From Aureimonas ureilytica DSM 18598 = NBRC 106430 (GTDB lineage: Bacteria > Pseudomonadota > Alphaproteobacteria > Rhizobiales > Rhizobiaceae), in assembly GCF_000382705.1 (NCBI RefSeq), contig NZ_ARQE01000001.1, positions 1 to 64,000 of the forward strand: DNA of 64,000 nt, in the 5' to 3' direction. Positions 1 through 11,382 of the stretch are shown one piece after another. The translations under genes and the position numbers were made by a program. The first letter of the stretch is position 1, and every line of letters starts with the position of its first letter. The notes beneath the pieces were generated by a model. That model was not told the DNA's origin, ran no database searches, and was given only the letters and a program-made list of their open reading frames with translations.

Positions 1-16
1 GGGTGGAAAGGCGACT

Positions 17-50
17 GTCCGCTTTCCGCCGACCGAGGCAGAAAGCGGAC
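17..50. terminator. Inverted repeat downstream of bdcA
   Basis: A perfect 10-bp inverted repeat (GTCCGCTTTC at 17-26, its complement at 41-50) with a 14-nt loop lies just past the bdcA stop codon on the minus strand. There is no clear U-run, so it may be a transcript-end hairpin or part of an upstream island feature. The position fits a terminator, but the call is tentative. Confidence 0.35.
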
Positions 51-78
51 CATTTCCTCACTGGTTGAGGGAGAACTG

Positions 79-792
79 CTAAGCGCCGAAGGCCCCGTCT
101 ATCGTATGCATGGCCCCTGTCACGAAGCCAGCCTCTGGACCGGCGAGCCAGGCGACCATGGCGGCGACCTCTTCGGGCCGGCCGTGGCGTTTGATCGCCA
201 TGAAGCCGTGCATGAGGTCCCGCATCGGTCCGTCCGCCGGGTTGGCATCGGTGTCGATGGGGCCGGGCTGCACGATGTTGATCGTGATGCCGCGTGGCCC
301 GAAATCGCGGGCTAGACCCCGGGCCAGCCCCTGAAGGGCCGACTTGCTCAGCGCATAGGAGGCCATGCCGGGCACGGGCATGCGGTCGCCGTTCACCGAG
401 CCGATCACGACGATCCGCCCGTCCGACGGCATGTGTCGCGCCGCCTCGACCGAAGCATGGTAAGGCGCATGGACGTTGACACGGAACAGGCGGTCGATCT
501 CGTCCGGGTCTTGGTCCAGCGCATCGCCGAAGATCGCGAAGCCGGAATTGACGATCAGGACGTCGAGCGGACCGCTTTCGCGCACGGTCGCAATCACCGC
601 GTCCCGGTCGGCGCTGTCGGTTCGAAGGGTACGGCTTCCGGTCTCGGCAGCCAGCACCTCGGCCGCGGCCTGTGAGCCGCTATAGGTAAAGGTCACGGCC
701 GCGCCGTCGGCTGCAAAGCGCCGCACGATCGCGGCGCCGATCCCGCGGCTTCCACCCAGAACCAGAACCGTCTTGCCTTGAAACGTCGTCAC
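79..792 (-). CDS. bdcA: SDR-family oxidoreductase, BdcA-like
   Basis: A 237-residue short-chain dehydrogenase/reductase. The N-terminus has the Rossmann motif GGSRGIG (about residues 11-17), followed by the NSG variant of the NAG motif, the catalytic YxxxK (YALSK) and a PGPID loop. From memory it is very close along its length to Escherichia coli BdcA (YjgI), reported to influence biofilm dispersal and to bind c-di-GMP. I start it at a GTG (790-792) because AAGGAGG lies 5 nt upstream and the protein then begins at the fold; the open frame runs further upstream but would overlap bdcR. It is divergent from bdcR, as in enterobacteria. It sits on an integrated island, so acquisition by transfer is likely. 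The substrate is unknown. Confidence 0.85.
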   Translation of the reverse strand: MTTFQGKTVLVLGGSRGIGAAIVRRFAADGAAVTFTYSGSQAAAEVLAAETGSRTLRTDSADRDAVIATVRESGPLDVLIVNSGFAIFGDALDQDPDEIDRLFRVNVHAPYHASVEAARHMPSDGRIVVIGSVNGDRMPVPGMASYALSKSALQGLARGLARDFGPRGITINIVQPGPIDTDANPADGPMRDLMHGFMAIKRHGRPEEVAAMVAWLAGPEAGFVTGAMHTIDGAFGA

Positions 793-865
793 GTCCGCCT
801 CCTTGAGGAATAACTTAGGAGTCGCTACATAAATATGGGCCTTTAGGCCGTCAACGAGTTCTGTA

Positions 866-1459
866 ATGTCTAATACAAAAATACCCCGGTCCCGCGGACG
901 GCCCCGCGGCTTCGACACGGAGCAGGCGGTCGCGGTCGCCGCCGATCTCTTTCGCGCCCGCGGCTTCGATGCCGTAAGTGTTGCCGATGTCATCGATGTT
1001 CTGGGCATCAAGCCGCCGAGCTTCTACTCGGCCTTCGGCAGCAAGCAGGGGCTCTACGCACGGGTGCTGGAACGCTACGCAGCGATGGGAGCAATCCCGC
1101 TCGACGATATCCTGAGACAGGACCGTCCCGTGGCAGACAACCTGACGGCGCTGTTGGATGCAGCAGCCCACCACTATGCCGCCGATCCGGAGACAGCCGG
1201 TTGTCTTGTGGTGGAAGGCACCCGCTGCAACGATGCGCAGGCCCGCGAGGCGGCTCTGGCCTACAACCTTGCCGTGGAAACACAGATCCGGGACCACATT
1301 GCGAAGCGCCATGCAGCGGAAGCGGCGGTCCTGACGGACTTTGTGGCGACGACCCTGTTCGGCCTGTCGGCCAAGGCACGCAGCGGCCACCGTCTCGACC
1401 AGCTTCGCACGACGGCACGCCTAGCGAGTTCGGCGATCCGGTCCGCGCTGATGGAGTAG
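866..1459 (+). CDS. bdcR: TetR-family transcriptional repressor, BdcR-like
   Basis: A 197-residue TetR regulator. Residues about 15-60 form the helix-turn-helix domain with the family-typical FDAVSVADV and PSFYSAFGSKQGLY stretches; the rest is a helical ligand and dimer domain. It resembles E. coli BdcR (YjgJ), the divergently encoded repressor of bdcA, and the arrangement here is the same: the 73 bp between the two starts (793-865) should hold both promoters and the operator. Autoregulation and repression of bdcA are inferred from that layout. The inducer is not known. It lies on the island with the Qat genes. Confidence 0.82.
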   Translation: MSNTKIPRSRGRPRGFDTEQAVAVAADLFRARGFDAVSVADVIDVLGIKPPSFYSAFGSKQGLYARVLERYAAMGAIPLDDILRQDRPVADNLTALLDAAAHHYAADPETAGCLVVEGTRCNDAQAREAALAYNLAVETQIRDHIAKRHAAEAAVLTDFVATTLFGLSAKARSGHRLDQLRTTARLASSAIRSALME

Positions 1460-1533
1460 GCTCGGTTCGAACGACCGCTTTTGATCGCCGTGTGTAACGA
1501 AGTGGATGTCTGCGAAGGGTCGAAAGCAGCGGT

Positions 1534-2096
1534 TCAGCGCGACCGCGCGTCGGCGACGATTCGGCTGACGGTGGGCTGCGACACCCCGTAGAGCCGCGCC
1601 ATGTCCGCCGCCGTTCGCCGGCCCGACACGACGCTCTCAACGATCTCGCGACGTTGAGCCGCTGTGAGCTTCGGGCGCCGCCCGCCGACGCGTCCCTCGG
1701 CTCGAGCCTGACGGAGACCGGCAGAGGTTCGCTCGCGGATCATGGCGCGCTCGAATTCGGCGAAGGCGCCGATCATGTGCATGAGCATCCGCCCCGGAGC
1801 GGTTGAAGTGTCGATGGCCTCGGTGAGGGAACGGAAACTCGCGCCGGCCGCCTCGACCCGTTCCATGACAGTCAAGGCATCCTTAAGGGACCGCGACAGG
1901 CGGTCGAGTTTCCAGACTACGAGCGTGTCGCCCGGCCGCAGGTGATCGAGGAGGCGTTGAAGCTCCGGGCGGTCCCAGCGGCCGCCGGACGCGACCTCCT
2001 CGAACACCCTTTCGCACCCAGCCTCGCGCAGCGCGCCCGCTTGGCCATGGTGGACTGATCGTCGGAGGTGGATACGCGGGCGTAGCCGAGGAACAT
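1534..2096 (-). pseudogene. Small serine resolvase/invertase, frameshifted
   Basis: A Tn3-type resolvase/DNA invertase of about 187 residues split by a one-base frameshift. The start (ATG at 2094-2096) encodes MFLGYARVSTSDDQST with the catalytic serine; the rest, in another frame from about 2046 down, carries GDTLVVWKLDRLSRS, the FAEFERAMIRERT helix and a C-terminal helix-turn-helix (GVSQPTVSRIVADARSR). Adding one C in the GGCC run near 2043-2046 restores a continuous frame. Either the gene is dead or the base call is wrong. Such enzymes resolve transposon cointegrates or invert DNA; here it is probably a relic of an earlier mobile element in the island. Confidence 0.75.
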
Positions 2097-2268
2097 GGTA
2101 CGGGATGCCTTTCGCAAACGGCCGTTTCCCCATGCGATCGGCAGGGTGCGGTCGCGTCGGGCGTTCGGCCTTTCACAATCCTCTTTCGCTGGCGGCGCAT
2201 CTTGCAAGAGGTTTGCGAAGCCCCTCTTCGATGCGAAGGCAGGCCGTCCTACTCATCATTCGGATGAG

Positions 2269-3000
2269 CTACTTCTCGGCCACAATCTTCCGGAAGTTCG
2301 ACACAAGGCGCGACTGGACCTCTTCCCGACTTGCGTTCCAAAGCTGGGCAAGCCCCTCCACGGTTGCCCAGGCATCCCATGGCTTAGTAGGTTGTCCCTG
2401 GTACTGCCCGAATGGCCCGTCGGATTCCGTGAGGACCCGATCCCAAGGCATCGCACGCACGGCTGTCCGTCCACGCTCCCCGAGCAGCACGCTTGGGCCG
2501 ACGGAGAACCAGCAGCCCATTTCAGCGGCACGCTCCACTTGGCGTTTCGTGCCCACGAACCAATGCAGGATCGGGCGGCCGGCGCTTGGCTCGGCCTCCA
2601 GGGCGTCAAGCACGCGGTCGATGGCGCCCCTACTGTGCATGGACATCACCCGCCCACCTGCGAGCGAGCACATTCGGAGGATGTCCCGCAACACCCCGAG
2701 CTGGGCATCCATCGTGTCGCGGTGCTCCCGCGATCCGTCGAGCCCAATCTCCCCAACGTAGTCCGTTCGGGGCAGCAGGCGCTCGAACAACGGCAACTCC
2801 CGGGCTCGCGCGGCGGCGAGTTCCGGATGCAGTCCGAGCGCCGTCTTGATCCTGCTTCCGTCGGGCGCCAGCGCTGCGGTGCCCTCGAACGCGCTGGGAA
2901 CAGTCGTCACCGACAGGACGTAGAGGCGCCGTGTGATGCACTCCGCGACCATTCCCGACGGATCGGGATACAGGTCGAGATGGCAGTGCAAGTCGATCAA
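2269..3000 (-). CDS. qatD: Qat anti-phage system TatD-like nuclease QatD
   Basis: A 243-residue TatD-family metal-dependent hydrolase. It opens with the metal-binding HxH (DLHCHLD, residues 3-9) and carries GLHPE, GEIGLDG, a histidine in MHSRG, HWFVGT and the acidic TESDGP motif, in TatD order. The chosen start is a TTG (2998-3000) overlapping the qatC stop as TTGA, which implies translational coupling; the open frame extends upstream only inside qatC. It is the last gene of the four-gene operon. In known Qat systems (described by Gao and co-workers, 2020) the TatD component is needed for phage resistance, and the DNase activity here is inferred from family. Confidence 0.88.
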   Translation of the reverse strand: MIDLHCHLDLYPDPSGMVAECITRRLYVLSVTTVPSAFEGTAALAPDGSRIKTALGLHPELAAARARELPLFERLLPRTDYVGEIGLDGSREHRDTMDAQLGVLRDILRMCSLAGGRVMSMHSRGAIDRVLDALEAEPSAGRPILHWFVGTKRQVERAAEMGCWFSVGPSVLLGERGRTAVRAMPWDRVLTESDGPFGQYQGQPTKPWDAWATVEGLAQLWNASREEVQSRLVSNFRKIVAEK

Positions 3001-4268
3001 GGCCAGGCGATCGCGTCGAGGAACGCCTTCACCTCCGCGGTGCCCCTGCGCACCACGTCGACATGGCCACGCCGCAAGTCCGGATCCGTCGGGAGCGGGC
3101 CTGCCTCGCTTGCCCAACGTGCCACGTCGCGGCGCTCAAGCGTCGCCGCCGCGAACCTCGCCGCCGCCACGTCCTCGTTCGACGCGTGTTCGGAAAGGTC
3201 GTTCGCCCAGTAATCCGTACCGTCCCGCATGCCCGCTGCCTCGAAGGAAGCCCGGCGTATAAGGCATGGCACGCAGCGACCGCAATGTTGGTTGAGGCGT
3301 TTTCCCTTCCCACACGAATAGGAGCGGTGCGCGAGCTCGTGGATAAGTTCGTCTCGGCATTCGGCAAGCATCTGCCCCTTAGTCTTGAGGGCGTAGGGCG
3401 TGCGAATGCGCGCAGGCAGGCCTACTCCGTCGAGGACACGTTGGAGGGACGAGATGAAGTGCGGGTGCGTCGTCCGCGTGCTGAGGCTCGCCATGCGCCG
3501 ATGCGTCAGCGGCGCGTTGATCGAGATCAGTCCGTTCTCGGGAACGAAGAGGTCGACCGGCGCCCCATCCCGGGCGAGCGACGCCGCCGCCACGGCCCCG
3601 TAGCCGAGGAACAGCATGGATCGTGCCCGTGACGACGGTTCGTACGGCTGCCGCCAGCGCTCCGAGGCACGCGCCGAGAAACGTTCAGCGTCCATGCCGA
3701 TCAGCCCTGCCAAGGTGCGCTGGACCGACCCCTCCTTCGGCGACGCCTGGCTGACGAGGAGGGGCCTCCGGCCTTCCGCGCGTAGGTCGAGCGCGCCAAT
3801 CAGGCTGTCGAGGCCGCCGGAGAACAGGCATGCGCAATCCCGGTCTGTCGGCCGGTCTGCGACGGCCGGAGGGCGTGCGCCCCCGCCGCGGAACCTGACG
3901 CTCCATATATCGCTCGAAAGGAAGCGAAGAGTGTCCTCGATCGCCCCGGCCTGGGCCGCCCACGGCTCGGGATCGGCAAGCTCGACCTCCAGCGCGATCA
4001 TGCGCGTCCAGGAGTCGGCTGCTTCCTTGCGGATGACGAAACGGTCGGCGGCATGGACCGCCAGGGCGATGGAGAGGAAGTCCCACGCCAGGACCGACGG
4101 GGTTCTCGGGAGTGCGGCCGCCGCTTGGTTAAGCGTGCCGCCGAGGCCGGCGAGTTCAGGGCGACCGATGTGATGCAAGGCAACGCCGACGTCGCCGTGG
4201 GCGACCGCGGCCGTCGCGCGCATGGCATTCGGCGTGGCGAGCACGCGGGTAGGGATGCGGGTCACCAT
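2997..4268 (-). CDS. qatC: Qat anti-phage system QueC-like protein QatC
   Basis: A 423-residue protein whose middle resembles QueC, the 7-cyano-7-deazaguanine synthase. It has the N-type ATP pyrophosphatase loop LFSGGLDS (148-155) and a four-cysteine zinc site (C319, C329, C332, C335), the QueC spacing. The N-terminal 140 residues and the tail are extra relative to QueC, which separates it from a housekeeping queuosine gene. The start overlaps the end of qatB by 7 nt and the end overlaps qatD. In the Qat system it is proposed to make or attach a deazaguanine-like modification; the chemistry here is not established. Confidence 0.9.
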   Translation of the reverse strand: MVTRIPTRVLATPNAMRATAAVAHGDVGVALHHIGRPELAGLGGTLNQAAAALPRTPSVLAWDFLSIALAVHAADRFVIRKEAADSWTRMIALEVELADPEPWAAQAGAIEDTLRFLSSDIWSVRFRGGGARPPAVADRPTDRDCACLFSGGLDSLIGALDLRAEGRRPLLVSQASPKEGSVQRTLAGLIGMDAERFSARASERWRQPYEPSSRARSMLFLGYGAVAAASLARDGAPVDLFVPENGLISINAPLTHRRMASLSTRTTHPHFISSLQRVLDGVGLPARIRTPYALKTKGQMLAECRDELIHELAHRSYSCGKGKRLNQHCGRCVPCLIRRASFEAAGMRDGTDYWANDLSEHASNEDVAAARFAAATLERRDVARWASEAGPLPTDPDLRRGHVDVVRRGTAEVKAFLDAIAWP

Positions 4269-5116
4269 GTCGAGATCTCCTCGAGCGCGACCTGCACGGT
4301 CCGCGCGACCAACGCGGACATCCGCTGTCCGCTAAGGACAGCTCCCGCGGCGACCAGGATCGGAGCGCCGACCAAGTCGACAACCTCTTTCACGAGAGAG
4401 CGGATGTCTGCCTCCCGTTGTGCCGCCGCCACGGGGCCGATCGCGGCCAGGGCCTTGCCGGCGTCGCCTGCGACCTGCGTGAACACGAGCTCTGCCACGA
4501 AGGCCAGGGTGGCGGTCTGCACCGCCTCGGCGTCGAGCGCGGCGGGATCGAAGGCCCCCGCGTTGCCTAGCGCTTCCGCGACGGCTACCTCCATCGAAAG
4601 GCGGGCTGTTACCTCGTCAATGATGCCGGCCGGCATGAACGCGTCGACGATCGCCGCGACTGCCACGTCCAAAGGCTGTCCCGCGAGTTCGCGGATGTCG
4701 ATCTGGCCGGCCTCGGGCGGTTCTCCCGCGCCGGCGCGCGCGAGGCCCGCCAGCGCGGATCCACCGGTGCGCGCTGCCCGTGCGACGCGCCGGGCTCCGG
4801 CTGGACCGCCCCCAACGGACTTGTTTGCCCATCGGCCCAGGGCCGCCCTGGCATCCGCACGATCGTTCGACGCCCCGAACCTACTCAGCGCCATCCGGAA
4901 GGGGCGGAACCGAGCAGGCTCGGCAACCTCCTCCACCTCTTCTCCGTCGACGACGTCGTCGGCCAGCGGGCCGGGGTCGTCGTCCTCCGGCTCGGGGACG
5001 GGATCTTCCGGAAGAGGATCCGGTAGCGGCGGAGGTGGTGCTGGGTCTTGGTCGGCCCATGGCGGAACGAGGGGAGCCGCCGGAGGAGCGTCAGGCTTAG
5101 AGCGCGAGGTTCCCAT
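4262..5116 (-). CDS. qatB: Qat anti-phage system protein QatB
   Basis: A 284-residue protein. The first about 70 residues are rich in proline and acidic residues and look disordered; the remainder is alanine-rich and probably helical, including a stretch near residues 130-230 that could be membrane-associated or packed helices. I see no catalytic motif. Identification rests mainly on position between a KAP ATPase and a QueC-like protein in the conserved qatA-B-C-D order. The ATG overlaps the qatA stop (TGATG); a GTG one codon earlier is also possible. The biochemical role of QatB is not known. Confidence 0.8.
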   Translation of the reverse strand: MGTSRSKPDAPPAAPLVPPWADQDPAPPPPLPDPLPEDPVPEPEDDDPGPLADDVVDGEEVEEVAEPARFRPFRMALSRFGASNDRADARAALGRWANKSVGGGPAGARRVARAARTGGSALAGLARAGAGEPPEAGQIDIRELAGQPLDVAVAAIVDAFMPAGIIDEVTARLSMEVAVAEALGNAGAFDPAALDAEAVQTATLAFVAELVFTQVAGDAGKALAAIGPVAAAQREADIRSLVKEVVDLVGAPILVAAGAVLSGQRMSALVARTVQVALEEISTW

Positions 5117-6882
5117 CACTTGGTCTCCAGCATGCCGGTCTTGCGAAGGAGGAACTGAATCCCCTTGGTCATCTCGCCGGTGTTGAGGCTGCCAATGAAG
5201 GCCTTGAGTTCCGTCTTGGTCTCCGGAAGTGCCTCCGCGATCATCAAGGCGCCGTAGAGGCCCGGGACCGCCGAGGTCCAGTCGGCTTCCCGCATGGTCG
5301 CCACCAGCCCGGACATGACGGCGCGCTTGTCGTCAGGCGTCAGGCCGGCGACGATCCTCTTTCCGACCGGGGACGCGATGCCGTCGATCTTGAGCAAGGC
5401 ATCGATGGCGGTTCGGGCCGCTTCGCTGATGTCCGAGCGTGCCCGCGCCGGTGCCATGACGTCGCGGCTGAGGAAGACGGCCGGCCTCAGTCTCTCGGCG
5501 TTCTCGAACGGCGGGTCGAGCTTTCGCCACTCCTCGACGAAATCGGCATGCGGCTCCCACTCTTTGGGCAACGGGGACGGCTTGGCCTTATCCTTGCCGC
5601 CCGGCAGGAGGACCTTCTCGACGTCCTTTCCATCCATGATGAGCTGGAACAGCGCGAGCGTTGCCGGACCGTCGGTGCAGCGCTCGAAGATGGCGAGCTT
5701 CGCCAAGGTCGCGAAGTCGACGTTCATCTGCCGTTTCGCGGCCAGGGTACGCCGGAGCGACACGGCGTTGAGAAGCCGCTTCACGATGCGGGGGTTGCCC
5801 TGGATCTTCGGCGCCGACGCCATCATCGGCGCCAGCCTGTCGGCGATGGCGAGGTTGTCCAAGAGGTCGGGAGGGTTTCCCGCGAGTCCTGCGATCTCGG
5901 CCTTCTCGAATGTCTCGTTGCGCCATCCTTCTTGCAGTGCGGAAAGGAGCCGCTCTTGCACGGCGGGCAGGCGGTCGGGCGCGGCTAGGCCGACGAAGAG
6001 CGAGTACATGTAGGCTCGCAGGTCCTCCGCCCCGACCCTCGGTACGCGCATCGGCACCTGGATGACCTTATCGAGATAGTCGCGCACGTGGGACGCGTTG
6101 GGATCGTCGAAGTGCTTCGCGACCGAATGGCGGATCATATCCTCGTCGGCGGCGATGACGAACGCCGTCTGAGGCATGAACAGGAACAGCCGGATCGCCT
6201 CAAGCGTGCCGATCGCGACGTCGGGAAGGCATCGGTCAAGGTTGTCGACGAAGACGACCAACGTCGTCTCTAGCCCCTCTAGCAAGGAGCCGAACTCCTC
6301 GCGGAAGGCCACGATCTCCTTTGGCGGCGTCCGCTTCTCGGCGGGCTTGATCAGTTCGCCGAGCCCCTTCCGAGCCTCGGCCGCGTCCTCCTTAGCCGTA
6401 CCGTATTGCTCCTCGGTCAGACCGCCCGCAAGAGCCGAGGACACTGCGGCGCCCGCCCTCGTCAGGAGGCCCGGGGGGATGCCGAGGGCCATCCCGACGC
6501 CGAAGTCGGCGATCATCCCCAAACCACGGAAGTAATTGACCCGTCCCGCGAACTCCTTCGCCTTCTCGACAAGGGTCTTCTTCTCCTCCGCCAACGCGAG
6601 AAGCTCGGTGGCGACCACCTCCATCAGGGCGGCACGCGCGTCGTCGAATCCTTGGTACATCCAGGCGTCGAACCTGACGACGACGGCAGCCGCGTCCCCG
6701 TCTCTCGGGGCGGGCAGGCGTGCCTCGACGAGCTTCAGCACGGTCGACTTTCCCGTGCCCCACGTTCCGAACACGCCGATCGAGATGGGCAACAGGGATG
6801 GAGTGGTCGCGAGGGTGGCGATCTGGTCCGCCACCTCGGTAAAGTTCAGGAAGTCCTGCTCGCTCTCGCTGTCGCGCCACAT
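5116..6882 (-). CDS. qatA: Qat anti-phage system KAP-family P-loop ATPase QatA
   Basis: A 588-residue KAP-type P-loop NTPase. Walker A is GTWGTGKST (residues 39-47) and the KAP Walker B is VVFVDNLDRC (about 209-218). A hydrophobic, glycine-rich insert around residues 115-150 fits the membrane-associated segment found in many KAP ATPases. It is the first gene of the qatABCD operon, with overlapping stop/start signals to qatB. Family knowledge suggests a regulatory or sensing ATPase for the complex. The ATG at 6880-6882 lies about 35 nt below a perfect TATAAT box. The length and order match known Qat loci. Confidence 0.9.
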   Translation of the reverse strand: MWRDSESEQDFLNFTEVADQIATLATTPSLLPISIGVFGTWGTGKSTVLKLVEARLPAPRDGDAAAVVVRFDAWMYQGFDDARAALMEVVATELLALAEEKKTLVEKAKEFAGRVNYFRGLGMIADFGVGMALGIPPGLLTRAGAAVSSALAGGLTEEQYGTAKEDAAEARKGLGELIKPAEKRTPPKEIVAFREEFGSLLEGLETTLVVFVDNLDRCLPDVAIGTLEAIRLFLFMPQTAFVIAADEDMIRHSVAKHFDDPNASHVRDYLDKVIQVPMRVPRVGAEDLRAYMYSLFVGLAAPDRLPAVQERLLSALQEGWRNETFEKAEIAGLAGNPPDLLDNLAIADRLAPMMASAPKIQGNPRIVKRLLNAVSLRRTLAAKRQMNVDFATLAKLAIFERCTDGPATLALFQLIMDGKDVEKVLLPGGKDKAKPSPLPKEWEPHADFVEEWRKLDPPFENAERLRPAVFLSRDVMAPARARSDISEAARTAIDALLKIDGIASPVGKRIVAGLTPDDKRAVMSGLVATMREADWTSAVPGLYGALMIAEALPETKTELKAFIGSLNTGEMTKGIQFLLRKTGMLETK

Positions 6883-7314: not shown

Positions 7315-8646
7315 ATGCGGGCAATCGATCTCTTCTGCGGTGCCGGGGGCATGTCCCTCGGTCTGACACGGGCTGGCTTCCAGATCGTCCAGGGGTACGA
7401 CGCGAACGAGAAGGCCCTGAGGGTCCACGGCGCGAACCTCCGCCGGCCGCTCGATCGGCTTTTCAAGCGCGACCGCCACCGGAAGGCGGACCTTGCGGAC
7501 CTCCTGACGATGGCGCCCACCATCGCCGCCCTGGAGCCCGACATCATCGTCGGCGGCCCGCCGTGCCAGGACTTCTCCTCGGCCGGCAAGCGTCAGGAGG
7601 GACGCAACGCGTCCCTGACGCTCGGCTTCGCCGTGGCGATCATCACCGCAAGGCCCGCGTGGTTCGTCATGGAGAACGTTCCCCGCGCCCGGAAAACGAA
7701 GACGTACGCGAAGGCGCGCGCCCTGTTCGTCAAGGCCGGCTACGGACTGACGGAAGTCGTACTCGACGGCAGCCGCTACGGCACGCCGCAGATGCGCAAA
7801 AGATTCTTCGCCGTGGGAAGGCTCGGGGAGGCCGACGGCTTCCTCACGTCGGCCATCGCCGAGGCCGCCTCTCCCCGTCGCATGTCGATCCGCGATGCCC
7901 TCGGCGACGACGTGGGCGTTCACCCGGGCGGGGACCATCCGCCAGAGGCCCGCGCATTCTTCATGCGGCCCTACACAGGGCATTCGGGCGTCCGGTCGAT
8001 CGACCTCCCGTGCCCAACGCTCCTGCGCAGTGCGCATGAGGGACCGCAGAACTGGTACACGGACCACGAGCGCGACATGGCGCCGTCGGCACTCGTCGAC
8101 CCGCTGCCGATGGATGTCCTTTCCCGCATCCAGGGCTTCCCCGCGGACTGGGACTGGCTCGACATCCCGGCGACCAGGCAGAGGATGTTGATGATCGCCA
8201 ACGCGGTCCCCCCTCCGTTGGCGGAGGCAGTCGGGCGGGTAATCCTCGCACGCGAACGGGGCGAGTCGATCCCGACGACGGAGAAGGCATTCGACGCCTG
8301 GCTCCAGAAGGGTCGCAGGGGTCTTACCGGGCAGTCCCTTCGGAACCGGCGGCTGCACCTGAAGCAGGCACGGAAGCTGTTGGGCGGTCGAATCCTTGCG
8401 GACCTCGACGCCGAGCTGGCGCTCCTGGAGCGCGCCGAAGGTTTCTCGACGCTGTCGACGAACGCGAAGTCGGACCTGCGGCGCGCATTGCGCTCGCATG
8501 CCAAGTGGCGCGCGGAGGTTGCCGCGAAGCGCAAGGCTCGGGCCGAGGCAAGGCTTGAGAAGCTGCGCACGCCTGTCCCGCGCCGCCCGCTCGGCGCGCC
8601 TGTCCGCGTTCCGGCGTCGGCGGCATTCCTCGAAGCGGCCGAGTAG
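7315..8646 (+). CDS. DNA (cytosine-5) methyltransferase, apparently without restriction partner
   Basis: A 443-residue C5 methyltransferase. Ordered motifs are visible: I (DLFCGAGG, residues 5-12, SAM binding), IV (GGPPCQDFS with catalytic Cys84), VI (ENV, 120-122), VIII (QMRKRFF, 159-165) and X (NAVPPP, about 296). The target-recognition region lies between VIII and X. The last 110 or so residues form an unusual basic, helical tail rich in Arg, Lys and Ala that the core family does not need. It is divergent from qatA. No endonuclease gene is visible nearby, so it may be orphan, protective, or paired with a gene outside the window. Specificity cannot be read from sequence. Confidence 0.88.
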   Translation: MRAIDLFCGAGGMSLGLTRAGFQIVQGYDANEKALRVHGANLRRPLDRLFKRDRHRKADLADLLTMAPTIAALEPDIIVGGPPCQDFSSAGKRQEGRNASLTLGFAVAIITARPAWFVMENVPRARKTKTYAKARALFVKAGYGLTEVVLDGSRYGTPQMRKRFFAVGRLGEADGFLTSAIAEAASPRRMSIRDALGDDVGVHPGGDHPPEARAFFMRPYTGHSGVRSIDLPCPTLLRSAHEGPQNWYTDHERDMAPSALVDPLPMDVLSRIQGFPADWDWLDIPATRQRMLMIANAVPPPLAEAVGRVILARERGESIPTTEKAFDAWLQKGRRGLTGQSLRNRRLHLKQARKLLGGRILADLDAELALLERAEGFSTLSTNAKSDLRRALRSHAKWRAEVAAKRKARAEARLEKLRTPVPRRPLGAPVRVPASAAFLEAAE

Positions 8647-8759: not shown

Positions 8760-10445
8760 CTACGCCGACGCTCTCCGCCCGCGCATCTTCGCAAGGGTAC
8801 GGAGGTTGCGGGTCTCCTCGTCGGGGTCGGGTGTGTCATCCATGCCGACGAACCCGGACGGGTCCGTGTCGTCGTTGAGCCACATCTGCCAAGCCAGCAT
8901 GTGGCGGGCGCCGACGATCGCGGGCACGTCCTCGGCGGGGACGCCCGGCCGCGGGGTGAGGTACGCGAGCACCCCCAAGTCGGGATCGAATCGAACCTCG
9001 GCCACAAGTTGGCGAAGCTGTTCGGCGAGACGCGTCCTGATCGCGTGCCGGTCGTCGCCCTCCGCTTCCTCCATCGCCCGTGACAGGTCCACGGCCTCAC
9101 CGAGACGGGCGCGTAGGCCGGGGTCGGCGGCGGCCGTCGCGGCGGCCTTCTCGGCCTCGCGGAGCTCGCGCTGGATGGTCTTGGCCTCCTCGCCGAGCGC
9201 CCGGTAGCGGTCGGCCGCCCCGTCGTCCCCGTCCTCGACCAGTCCGAGGAGGCGCTTGCGGCGGCCCTCGACCTCGACGAGGCGAGCGCCGAGGATGGTC
9301 ACGCGATCGGCCTCGGCGGTGGGCTGCGCGCCGCGGAGGACCGCCCCTGCGTCGAGGTAGGCCAGCCCCCGGAGGAGGCGGCGTTCGATGCGGTCGGCAC
9401 GCCACCTCGTGCCGTTCTCGCACCCCGCGCCGCGCCGTTGCGTGGCGCACTCGAAGTACGTCCCGCCCTTCGGTGGCGGTCCCTTGTCGATCACGTACAT
9501 GGACCCGCCGCAGCGGGCGCACTTGCCAAGCCCGAGGAGAAGGTGAGCGACGCCGCGTCCCCGTCGACCGGCTGCGATGCGGCGGCCCTTCGATGCCTGC
9601 CGGGCCCGCCAGTAGGTCTCCTCGTCCACGACGGCGGGGTAGTAGCCCCTGATTGGGTTGCCCTCGGGCTGGCGGTTGCCGCCGCGGTGGGTGCCCGAAT
9701 GCGGCTGGTACTCGCCGAGCGCGAGGCGTCCGCTGAGAATCTTGGCGACGGTGGACGTCTGCCAGCCGATGCCGCCTCGCCATGTCGGGGTTCCGGCCGC
9801 GTTGAGCCGAGATACGATCTGCCGTTGCCCGTAGCCCTCGATCGCCATGTGGTAGATGCTGCGCACGATCTCGGCGCGGTCCTCGCGGAGGACGAACTTG
9901 CCGTCCTCGATCGCGATCCACTCGGGACAGCGCAGCGTGAGGGGCCGGCCCTCATCGCGTGCCGCGGCCTTCTTCCTTGCCCAGGCGGCCCCAACTCGCT
10001 CTCCCTTCGTCCGGGACTCCTCGTGGGCGCGAGCCATCACTGCGATCGACACGATCAGCGGCGTCCAGTCCGTGCGCAGGCGCTCCTCGGAGTAGACCTG
10101 ACCGTCGGAGAGAGTCACAACAATGACTCCCGCGCGGATCAGGTCGAACAGCCGCGCCGCGGCATCCAGAACAGCCTCTCGGGACAGACGGTCCAAGGAC
10201 TCGACCACTAAGTACGAGCCGTGCGGGACCTCCCCCGCCTCAACCAAAGCAAGGAATCGCTTGAGGGCGCCGATGTCCCGGTGAGCGCCCTTGTACGCAG
10301 ATATGCCCAGGTCCCGGAGGCTGTCGTCCAACTCCAGCCCGCGAGCCTGGCACCAGTCCCTCGCCCTAGATAGCTGACGACGGAGTGAGTCGCCGCGTGC
10401 CTGCTCCGGCGACGAGAAGCGTATGTAGCTGAAAGCCTTGGGCAT
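8760..10445 (-). CDS. Large serine recombinase (island integrase)
   Basis: A 561-residue large serine recombinase. The N-terminal catalytic domain (about 1-150) has YIRFSS with nucleophile Ser11 and ESLDRLSRE near residue 84; then come a Recombinase domain (about 190-300), a zinc ribbon (CARC near 306, further cysteines by 345) and a coiled-coil C-terminal region (about 390-470). I start at ATG 10443-10445 (MPKAFSY); the frame stays open about 80 codons upstream but only antisense to comM. The gene begins about 45 bp from the comM junction, the usual place for an integrase beside its attachment site. It should catalyse integration and, with a directionality factor not seen here, excision. Confidence 0.9.
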   Translation of the reverse strand: MPKAFSYIRFSSPEQARGDSLRRQLSRARDWCQARGLELDDSLRDLGISAYKGAHRDIGALKRFLALVEAGEVPHGSYLVVESLDRLSREAVLDAAARLFDLIRAGVIVVTLSDGQVYSEERLRTDWTPLIVSIAVMARAHEESRTKGERVGAAWARKKAAARDEGRPLTLRCPEWIAIEDGKFVLREDRAEIVRSIYHMAIEGYGQRQIVSRLNAAGTPTWRGGIGWQTSTVAKILSGRLALGEYQPHSGTHRGGNRQPEGNPIRGYYPAVVDEETYWRARQASKGRRIAAGRRGRGVAHLLLGLGKCARCGGSMYVIDKGPPPKGGTYFECATQRRGAGCENGTRWRADRIERRLLRGLAYLDAGAVLRGAQPTAEADRVTILGARLVEVEGRRKRLLGLVEDGDDGAADRYRALGEEAKTIQRELREAEKAAATAAADPGLRARLGEAVDLSRAMEEAEGDDRHAIRTRLAEQLRQLVAEVRFDPDLGVLAYLTPRPGVPAEDVPAIVGARHMLAWQMWLNDDTDPSGFVGMDDTPDPDEETRNLRTLAKMRGRRASA

Positions 10446-10490
10446 CGGTAACCGTCCGTCGGGTTCGATGCTGTTAATGTAGCATACCTT
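10446..10490. mobile_element. Right attachment junction of the island in comM
   Basis: Homology to comM begins abruptly at about 10489 (codons for LLMVGPPGSGKS), whereas the DNA just to the left belongs to the integrase leader, with an in-frame TAG at 10480-10482. The crossover therefore lies at about 10480-10491, at the comM Walker A codons. The exact core cannot be set without the left junction, which is outside the window. Confidence 0.65.
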
Positions 10491-11382
10491 GCTGATGGTC
10501 GGCCCGCCCGGATCGGGCAAGTCCATGCTGGCGCAGCGCCTGCCCTCGCTTCTGCCCCCGCTCGGGCCGCGCGAGCTGCTCGACGTCTCCATGATCGCCT
10601 CGGTCGCGGGCGAGCTTTCCGAAGGCCGCCTGTCGGCCCGCCGCCCGTTTCGCGCCCCGCACCATTCCGCCTCCATGGCCGCCATGGTGGGCGGCGGGCA
10701 GCGCGCCCGGCCGGGCGAGGTCTCGCTCGCCCATCACGGCGTCCTGTTTCTGGACGAGTTGCCCGAATTCACGCCCGCCGTTCTCGACTCGCTGCGCCAG
10801 CCGATCGAAACCGGCGAAAGCGTCATCGCGCGGGCCAATCACCGCGTCACTTATCCCGCCGCGTTCCAGCTCGTCGCCGCCATGAACCCGTGCCGCTGCG
10901 GCATGGCCGGCGAGCCCGGCCATCAATGCGCGCGCGGCCCCCGCTGCGTGTCGGACTATCAGGCCCGCCTGTCCGGCCCGCTGCTCGATCGCATCGACCT
11001 GCGCGTCGACGTGCCCGCCGTCACCGCGCTCGACCTGATCCAGCCCGGCCCCTCAGAAGATTCCGTCACCGTGCGCGCCCGCGTCGAGGCCGCACGCCTT
11101 CTCCAGAGCCGTCGCTACGAGGCGCTCGGCCTGCCCGCCGGCACCACCAACGCCCGCTGCCCGCCCGACCGGCTCGAACAGGCCGCTGCGCCCGACCAAG
11201 CGGGCGTCGCCCTCCTGCGCGACGCCGCCGAGCGCATGCGCCTTTCGGCCCGCGCCTATCACCGCGTCCTGAAAGTGGCTCGCACCATCGCCGATCTCGC
11301 CGGTGCCGAGACGATCGGCCGCCCGCATCTCGCCGAAGCCCTGTCCTATCGCAGCCTGCCGGAGCGGTTGCAGGCGGCTTGA
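10489..11382 (+). pseudogene. comM: ComM/YifB Mg-chelatase-like AAA+ ATPase, 3' fragment
   Basis: About 297 codons of the C-terminal part of ComM (YifB), a hexameric AAA+ helicase that aids branch migration in natural transformation. It begins at Walker A (VGPPGSGKS) and contains PHHSAS, Walker B (GVLFLDELPEF), the arginine-finger region and the Mg-chelatase C-terminal domain (KVARTIADLAG). The N-terminal Lon-like domain (about 200 residues) is missing because the island is inserted directly upstream. A TTG at 10489 is the first codon of the remnant and an in-frame stop precedes it, so the product, if any, would be inactive. Intact ComM is about 500 residues. Confidence 0.88.

Follow-up and report, generated by a model that had tools for sequence, protein, structure and literature searches.

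The stretch of DNA analyzed here, hereafter the window, comprises 64,000 nucleotides at the start of contig C1 (NZ_ARQE01000001.1) of the 5.09 Mb Aureimonas ureilytica DSM 18598 genome, and it carries a QatABCD anti-phage operon on its minus strand at positions 2269-6882. The operon begins with qatA (5116..6882), which encodes a KAP-family P-loop NTPase of 588 amino acids (PADLOC QatA, E-value 2.1e-173; Pfam KAP_NTPase, 1.5e-46). Behind it follow qatB (4262..5116; 284 amino acids, N-terminus MGTSRSKPDAPPAAPLVPPWADQ; PADLOC QatB, 1e-33), qatC (2997..4268; a QueC-like enzyme of 423 amino acids; PADLOC QatC, 1.2e-99), and qatD (2269..3000; a TatD-family nuclease of 243 amino acids; PADLOC QatD, 2.3e-87). 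For each of the four proteins the best model in PADLOC and NCBIfam is that of its own Qat family, and Pfam detects KAP_NTPase, QueC, and TatD_DNase, with QueC as the sole Pfam domain of QatC and no passing Pfam model for QatB. The initial annotation had left the QatB-like protein unassigned; it matches three PADLOC QatB models as well as the NCBIfam QatB model. QatC and QatD pass their NCBIfam cut-offs (331 bits vs 280 and 320 vs 230). What speaks against a straightforward assignment is that for QatA and QatB the Qat equivalog, while the best match, scores below the cut-off (382 vs 600 and 61 vs 100), i.e., the operon is divergent from the sequences behind those two models. Nevertheless, because the A-B-C-D order, all four families, and their motifs occur together, the cluster is, as judged from its sequence, a complete QatABCD operon and not a chance assembly. 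The operon itself is ordinary, a further and recently mobile copy of a known system.

All four overlapping minus-strand genes described in the initial annotation are present in the order given there, and its three junctions were recovered base for base: the qatA stop codon TGA and the qatB start codon ATG share one nucleotide (TGATG, 5118-5114), qatB and qatC overlap by 7 nucleotides (4268-4262), and the qatC stop overlaps the TTG start of qatD by 4 nucleotides (TTGA, 3000-2997). Longer open reading frame calls would start qatB at a GTG at 5119 and qatD at a TTG at 3117; the starts at 5116 (MGTS) and at TTG 3000 are likely the true ones, since they match those of relatives. The reading of these overlaps as fixing the stoichiometry of the products was over-stated, as coding overlaps suggest translational coupling instead.

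The motifs of the individual proteins were then read against solved structures and published mutants. QatA has a Walker A motif GTWGTGKS and a Walker B motif VVFVDNLDRC, whose DNLDR is the commonest QatA form (51 of the 85 loci with a QatA match, from the locus set described below), and a PDB sequence search returned no relative of it at E-values up to 0.1. QatD matches 3gg7_A (5.7e-76) and 9xsn_A (1.3e-57) in the PDB and carries HCH at 5-7, GEIGLD at 83-88, HSR at 122, HWF at 146, and ESDGP at 192, in which the HCH, E, H, H, and D are what we take to be the TatD residues. QatB begins MGTSRSKPDAPPAAPLVPPW, with MGTS encoded at 5116-5105, and so has a Gly2 and the P18/W20 tail motif; it matches the solved QatB chain 9zee_A at 2.9e-9 and 9vll_A at just 0.049. 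The QatC matches to solved QatC chains are far stronger (9vlk_A, 2.6e-58; 9zee_B, 8.7e-52). Its motifs are SGGLDS at 150-155, STRTTHP at 263-269, Cys319/329/332/335, and D63, and in an alignment of nine QatC proteins the columns D63, S150-G151-G152-D154-S155, S263-T264-T266-H268-P269, T296-K297, C319, C329, C332, and C335 (window numbering) are invariant. Counted along the PDB alignment, T264 and T266 correspond to T278 and T280 of Pseudomonas aeruginosa QatC.

According to PMC13279940, on which we draw throughout, T278 and T280 replace the Tyr/Asp pair with which QueC and Cap9 bind 7-carboxy-7-deazaguanine (CDG) and are essential, and the N-terminal glycine and the P/W tail of QatB are needed as well. 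The window operon has these published essential residues, and by analogy its QatB Gly2 is presumed to be an acceptor glycine. The earlier statements that the PP-loop and zinc site of the QueC-like protein and the catalytic residues of A, C, and D are intact were confirmed by the motif check of each. The operon may thus well be functional, as had been proposed, with the qualification that intact QatA and QatD are not decisive for this, because QatB and QatC are the minimal unit against some phages (PMC13279940).

Relatives of QatC and the CDG pathway

To collect relatives of QatC, a five-protein QatC alignment was run against the GTDB genome contigs. The best 80 of the 535 relatives, together with 8 plasmid loci, make up a set of 88 loci, in 83 of which a QatB frame starting with MGTS lies upstream of qatC. 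Such a frame was counted if an ATG, GTG, or TTG start was followed by GTS codons in an open frame no shorter than 150 codons; the apparent invariance of M1-G2-T3-S4 in our QatB alignments (A4 and A5) is therefore by construction, MGTS having been the search criterion. P18 is nearly invariant in the same alignments. No MGTS-started QatB was found at L035, L067, L082, L084, and L105, with only 835 bases preceding the qatC match in L082 and a longer upstream stretch in the other four, nor at L180 in a second sample (n = 19). The plasmids that carry Qat include ones from Deinococcota and Actinomycetota (L032, L033). On the Deinococcus radiodurans plasmid, Qat is flanked just upstream by a gene for an Eco29kI-family restriction endonuclease (L032:2367-3020) and downstream by one for a recombinase.

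A tree of 73 proteins (quick search, SH-aLRT support; L146 was dropped as its frame was misread) places the window QatC among 45 QatC proteins, nearest to L042 and to L044 from Kaistia dalseonensis. QatC forms a single clade (support 92), and a support of 99 separates QatC plus QatC-like proteins from nine QueC of the canonical type, that of the host included, which bears out the view of the initial annotation that the QueC-like gene stands apart from housekeeping queC. We would like to note that L033 and L034 have long branches and that the joining of a group of about 460 amino acids, described below, with QueC may be a false long-branch effect.

QueD and QueE produce the CDG that QueC consumes (PMC13329287), so the occurrence of these genes was compared with that of Qat, beginning with 297 genomes drawn from the host's family. 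With QueE called at E <= 1e-15 and at most ten candidates scored per genome, QatC exceeds its cut-off in 15 of the 297 genomes, QueC in 89, and QueE is found in 73. Among the 15 Qat-bearing genomes, QueC is present in 4, QueE in 1 (the window's own), and neither in 11; when all candidates in the other 14 were scored, no QueE was found beyond one partial match of 32 bits. None of the 297 genomes has QueE without QueC, and a missing QueC is therefore a fair proxy for a missing pathway. The QatB and QatC motifs are intact in the operons concerned: all 15 genomes have an MGTS-started QatB, SGGxDS, STxTxHP, the zinc cysteines, and a QatD match. Completeness is listed as at least 93% for 9 of the 11 genomes lacking both genes and as 83 and 85% for G244 and G252.

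A second set consists of 49 Qat-bearing genomes, namely 48 named ones and the window's own. Here QueC is over the cut-off in 42, and QueE (alignment A3), called if a match ran from the model start with more than 80 bits or was split over two contigs, gives some match in 46 and a convincing one, by our reading of the matches, in 41, one of which is split (G328). No convincing QueE was found in G298, G300, G302, G308, G322, G326, G336, and G341. Three of these, Kaistia dalseonensis (G300), Nioella nitratireducens (G302), and a Chloroflexi metagenome-assembled genome (G308), lack a convincing QueC, QueD, and QueE alike, and the other five do have QueC; QueD, searched for in 30 of the 49 genomes, is absent in 7. 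One of the five is A. psammosilenae (G298), whose canonical QueC lies at G298:C33:350777-351427 (L201) with no queD or queE beside it in the 6 kb covered and no QueD or QueE found in the genome, so that either its QueE was missed or its QueC is an orphan. Across 14 Kaistia genomes there is no QueC (E <= 1e-10) and no real QueE, only three partial matches of 33-37 bits, and in the family of Nioella the QatC cut-off is exceeded in 4 of 295 genomes, in each of which the search for QueE came back empty. Taking the two samples of Qat-bearing genomes together (49 + 14 - 1 = 62, G280 and G298 having identical coordinates and being counted as one), both QueC and QueE went undetected in 14 of the 62 distinct genomes searched for the two genes.

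Because intact Qat is often present where the pathway is not found, any group joined to QatB would probably not be host-made CDG. Several points weigh against this. The host's own queC, queD, and queE are adjacent at G000:C8:217025-218786, and CDG is therefore available in the window's genome. The QueE search is imperfect, since it found none in 17 of the 89 family genomes with QueC. Qat could also sit idle in the genomes lacking the pathway or use a scavenged or imported precursor there, as carrying a gene does not prove that it works. Finally, an actual avoidance of the queuosine pathway by Qat, which we considered, was rejected: QueC occurs in 4 of 15 genomes with Qat vs 85 of 282 without (Fisher p = 1.0) and QueE in 1 of 15 vs 72 of 282 (p = 0.13), neither association being significant, so that Qat is independent of the pathway and does not avoid it.

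QueC-like enzymes beside other Met-Gly proteins

A second kind of locus emerged from QatC-like proteins with frames of 575-671 amino acids, whose scores against the QatC model, 180-225 bits, do not reach its cut-off of 280. There are 17 such loci, five in the host's family (L019-L022 and L024) and twelve in a second family (L183-L192, L194, and L195), and in 16 of them the gene directly upstream encodes a protein of about 260 amino acids that starts with MGH from an ATG or TTG codon. The distance from the preceding stop codon to the MGH start is 2-21 codons in 13 loci and 55-140 codons in 3; no MGH frame was found within 1.5 kb upstream in L024 or in the shorter L196 (401 amino acids), and the enzyme frame contains a stop in L020 and L192. 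Examples of the two-gene module, all on the minus strand, are L199:8136-10740, L200:7354-10028, and L198:7867-10516.

The partner alignment (A6) holds 16 rows from 15 distinct loci, one locus appearing twice and the near-copy L187 being left out, and at the N-terminus M, G, H, L, and P do not vary even in rows with as little as 28% identity to the first. As the start was chosen by MG, the M and G are partly by construction; the H, L, and P are not. The module enzymes have SGGxDS in 15 of 16 cases and ATRTTHP in 14 of 16, and 14 of them form one clade (SH-aLRT 99) that is sister to QatC (84). Three of the 16 partners were scanned with PADLOC and Pfam and gave no match. Homology of the partner to QatB was tried and rejected, the profile comparison giving a probability of 0.4% and no detectable relation. 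Three loci that were read more widely have recombinase- or integrase-like genes, named by eye, nearby, and a search of them with QatA, QatB, and QatD from the window found no match. Beyond the two sampled families, one single-sequence query each against plasmids, phages, and viral contigs returned no match to the partner. The parts of PMC13329287 consulted, and the titles and abstract openings of the papers found on Qat and QueC-like proteins, do not describe this module; the former places only 34.3% of its QatC cluster near qatA and 33.6% near qatD, which leaves room for such modules.

Two further groups were compared. A Halolamina plasmid carries an archaeal QatC-like gene (L209:2997-5266) with SGGLDS and TTRTVHP, preceded by two small genes, the first of which starts with MGTA. 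A QueC-like group of about 460 amino acids (L026-L030, and similar proteins in L206-L208) was considered as another N-terminal-glycine pair and rejected, because both the motifs and a Met-Gly start are missing: neither SGGxDS nor the Thr motif was found in L026-L030, and in L206-L208 the first gene starts with MSDG or, from a GTG, MRDG, and the enzyme has SDGxDS or SNGxDS without the Thr motif. On plasmids the latter form a four-gene cluster (L206:3279-6982, L207:3279-7012, and L208:3264-7006) of the MSDG/MRDG protein of about 185-190 amino acids, the QueC-like protein, an XRE/ImmA-IrrE-type regulator, and a protein of about 205 amino acids, which matches PADLOC PDC-S70 in the two clusters scanned, L206 and L208. 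Annotated nearby are an AbiEii-type toxin (L206), Shedu (L207), and a Lit-like exclusion gene (L208).

In the few lineages examined, the Thr motif thus occurs together with a Met-Gly protein, and where one is missing so is the other, which suggests a wider theme of a QueC-like enzyme with an N-terminal-glycine partner. More specifically, the QatC class may modify its partner at the N-terminal glycine with a group that is not host-made CDG, with QatBC being one of several such pairs (MGTS in Qat, the MGH module in the window's family and in Rhodobacteraceae-type genomes, and an MGT-started neighbor on a haloarchaeal plasmid). We put this generalization forward tentatively, as a serious candidate that we would stop just short of favoring.

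The integrative element in comM

The initial annotation had placed the operon on an island, and this is an integrative element inserted in comM. Divergent from qatA lies an orphan C5 cytosine DNA methyltransferase gene (7315..8646, plus strand; Pfam DNA_methylase, 4.8e-41), followed by a large serine recombinase gene (8760..10445, minus strand; 561 amino acids, MPKAFSYIRFSS...; Pfam Resolvase, Recombinase, and Zn_ribbon_recom, scanned as the longer open reading frame 8760-10685), whose product is presumed to be the integrase of the element. The right end of the element and its junction with comM occupy 10474..10497, with TTAATGTAGCATACC at 10474-10488 and a CTGATG core at 10492-10497; TTAATGTAGCATACC is an imperfect inverted repeat of the left end GGTGTGCTACATTAA (14 of 15 positions by eye). 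The 3' part of comM/yifB, which encodes a Mg-chelatase-like ATPase, follows at 10498..11382 on the plus strand, cut just before the Walker A codons (TIGR00368 positions 211-499 at 10480-11352). Its 5' counterpart (TIGR00368 positions 4-216) is on another contig of this genome, C3. Four genomes of the genus have an intact comM, and by-eye comparison of these with the element ends of three genomes puts the CTGA core in the codons just before Walker A. The integration site (window 10474-10497 and G000:C3:542894) is common to Aureimonas species, and comM is known as an insertion site of AbaR islands in Acinetobacter.

C1 opens with the same 1522 bases (window 1-1522) with which C3 ends. C3 and C1 thus probably join inside the element, which would make it about 42 kb long in this host; alternatively, the stretch is a repeat. 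In A. flava and A. psammosilenae a single contig holds both comM halves, separated by about 44 kb, and aligning these stretches over 45.7 kb, comM flanks included, gives 98.9% identity between the two. Against these two the window's genome aligns at 98.6% over the left 18.5 kb and at 97% over the right 9.8 kb; the 14.7 kb between the aligned ends contain 3.4 kb at 99.6% identity and three shorter pieces at 76-91%, and the middle of the element therefore differs. Qat sits at one end of this element of about 42-44 kb, beside the serine recombinase and the orphan methyltransferase. The latter was considered as a component of Qat and rejected, as among the 88 loci it is near Qat only in three near-identical Aureimonas loci (tblastn, 1e-8). 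Among the cargo on C3 are CrcB, a CLC channel with DUF190, an SLAC1-type channel, a sigma factor, and a molybdopterin oxidoreductase, with 3 of the 10 scanned proteins matchless; the element also has a MobA_MobL relaxase and for that reason looks at least mobilizable.

The block from 2250 to about 10490 differs by only 3-6 bases from its counterparts in A. flava, A. endophytica, and A. psammosilenae (>99.9% identity), whereas the adjoining comM of these three is 68-86% identical per 250-base bin, which points to recent horizontal transfer. Their qat genes have 0-1 amino-acid changes each and no stops. A small serine resolvase gene downstream of qatD (1534..2133, minus strand; Pfam Resolvase, 9.3e-40) is the more variable edge of the block, at 85-89% per 250-base bin in L039 and L041 and 100% in L040.

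Proposed role of QatC and comparison with known systems

The best explanation, which we consider well supported as a whole, is that QatABCD is cargo of the comM element, that QatC would arm QatB by joining a carboxylate, probably not host-made CDG, to its Gly2, and that QatA and QatD would widen the range of the defense. QatB and QatC would form a 1:1 complex, in which QatB, its initiator methionine removed, would insert Gly2 into the QatC active site by means of its disordered tail (MGTS...PW). QatC would then activate (adenylate) a carboxylate with ATP and join the group to Gly2, and the QatBC complex so armed would stop the phage, with QatA, as a DNA-binding KAP ATPase, and QatD, as a TatD nuclease, extending the spectrum of phages. 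This model follows the P. aeruginosa and Escherichia coli operons, for which a QatBC complex with ATP in the site and a need for Gly2, the Thr pair, and the PP-loop are reported, QatBC being sufficient against lambda and the reaction of QatC being left open (PMC13279940), and the precedent of Cap9, which joins 7-deazaguanine to the N-terminus of its partner in the type IV cyclic-oligonucleotide-based antiphage signaling system (CBASS) (PMC11996544). For the present operon, the modification of QatB and a phage trigger are what we infer.

It is possible, though we think it unlikely, that QatC deazaguanylates QatB Gly2 with CDG made by the host, as Cap9 does on the CD-NTase of type IV CBASS. The fold, the ATP site, and the need for an N-terminal glycine are the same as in Cap9 (PMC13279940), Libby et al. 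describe QatC in this way (PMC13329287), the host makes CDG through its own queCDE genes, and most of the 49 Qat-bearing genomes have QueC (42) and a convincing QueE (41). However, QatC has Thr/Thr where Tyr/Asp bind CDG, introducing Tyr/Asp abolishes defense, a crystal grown with CDG contained none (all PMC13279940), and 14 of the 62 Qat genomes have neither QueC nor QueE. That the gene is a housekeeping or queuosine-related one and the Qat likeness of the cluster superficial would fit QueC being the only Pfam domain of its product, but we count this reading as refuted by the tree split from nine QueC (support 99), by STRTTHP in place of the canonical YPDC-type motif (named in PMC13329287), and by the presence of all four Qat families in order.

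The remaining alternatives concern what the operon does for its bearer. It could be silent or decaying cargo kept by hitch-hiking, and because the whole block moved recently (>99.9% identity), integrity alone is no sign of selection for function; we nevertheless regard this as improbable, given that the four frames are whole in the copies of four species and that the essential residues are intact in the window. A role mainly against competing plasmids or other elements, or in stabilizing its own element, would suit a Qat operon that rides on an element with a MobA_MobL relaxase and lies beside the element's own recombinase, but published Qat operons restrict phages (PMC13279940, PMC13329287), and we give it very little credence.

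The value of the finding lies in the substrate question and in the sister module and not in the operon itself. The persistence of Qat in many genomes without a detectable CDG pathway bears on the question of the QatC substrate raised by PMC13279940, and a dependence on CDG could be tested with one knock-out strain. If the MGH module is indeed such a pair, a QueC-like enzyme with an N-terminal glycine would be a general design, and the chemistry could then be sought in the module as a second and smaller system.

Compared with the QatABCD systems of known structure (PDB 9zee/9zef and 9vlk/9vll), the window operon shares the gene order, the four families, the MGTS start and P/W tail of QatB, the PP-loop, Thr pair, and zinc cysteines of QatC, and the TatD residues of QatD. 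It differs in that its QatC is a clear but distant relative of the solved chains and its QatB a weak match, in that QatA and QatB fall below the NCBIfam cut-offs, and in that it stands beside a C5-methyltransferase gene on a comM element. Cap9 of type IV CBASS is likewise a QueC-like enzyme with a partner whose N-terminal glycine is required, but the window QatC has T264/T266 where Cap9 binds CDG with Tyr/Asp (PMC13279940). No CD-NTase or Cap10 was found near qatC, the ten scanned window proteins being the Qat proteins, the methyltransferase, recombinases, the comM part, an SDR, and a TetR protein. Canonical QueC shares the fold (PMC13279940), SGGxDS, and the zinc site with QatC; it forms a separate clade, and the host's own lies elsewhere, in the queCDE cluster. 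The MGH module, finally, has in common with Qat a QatC-like enzyme (SGGxDS, ATRTTHP) encoded directly behind a Met-Gly-starting gene, and it differs in the size of that enzyme, about 575-670 amino acids with an extra C-terminal part, and in a partner with no detectable profile relation to QatB.

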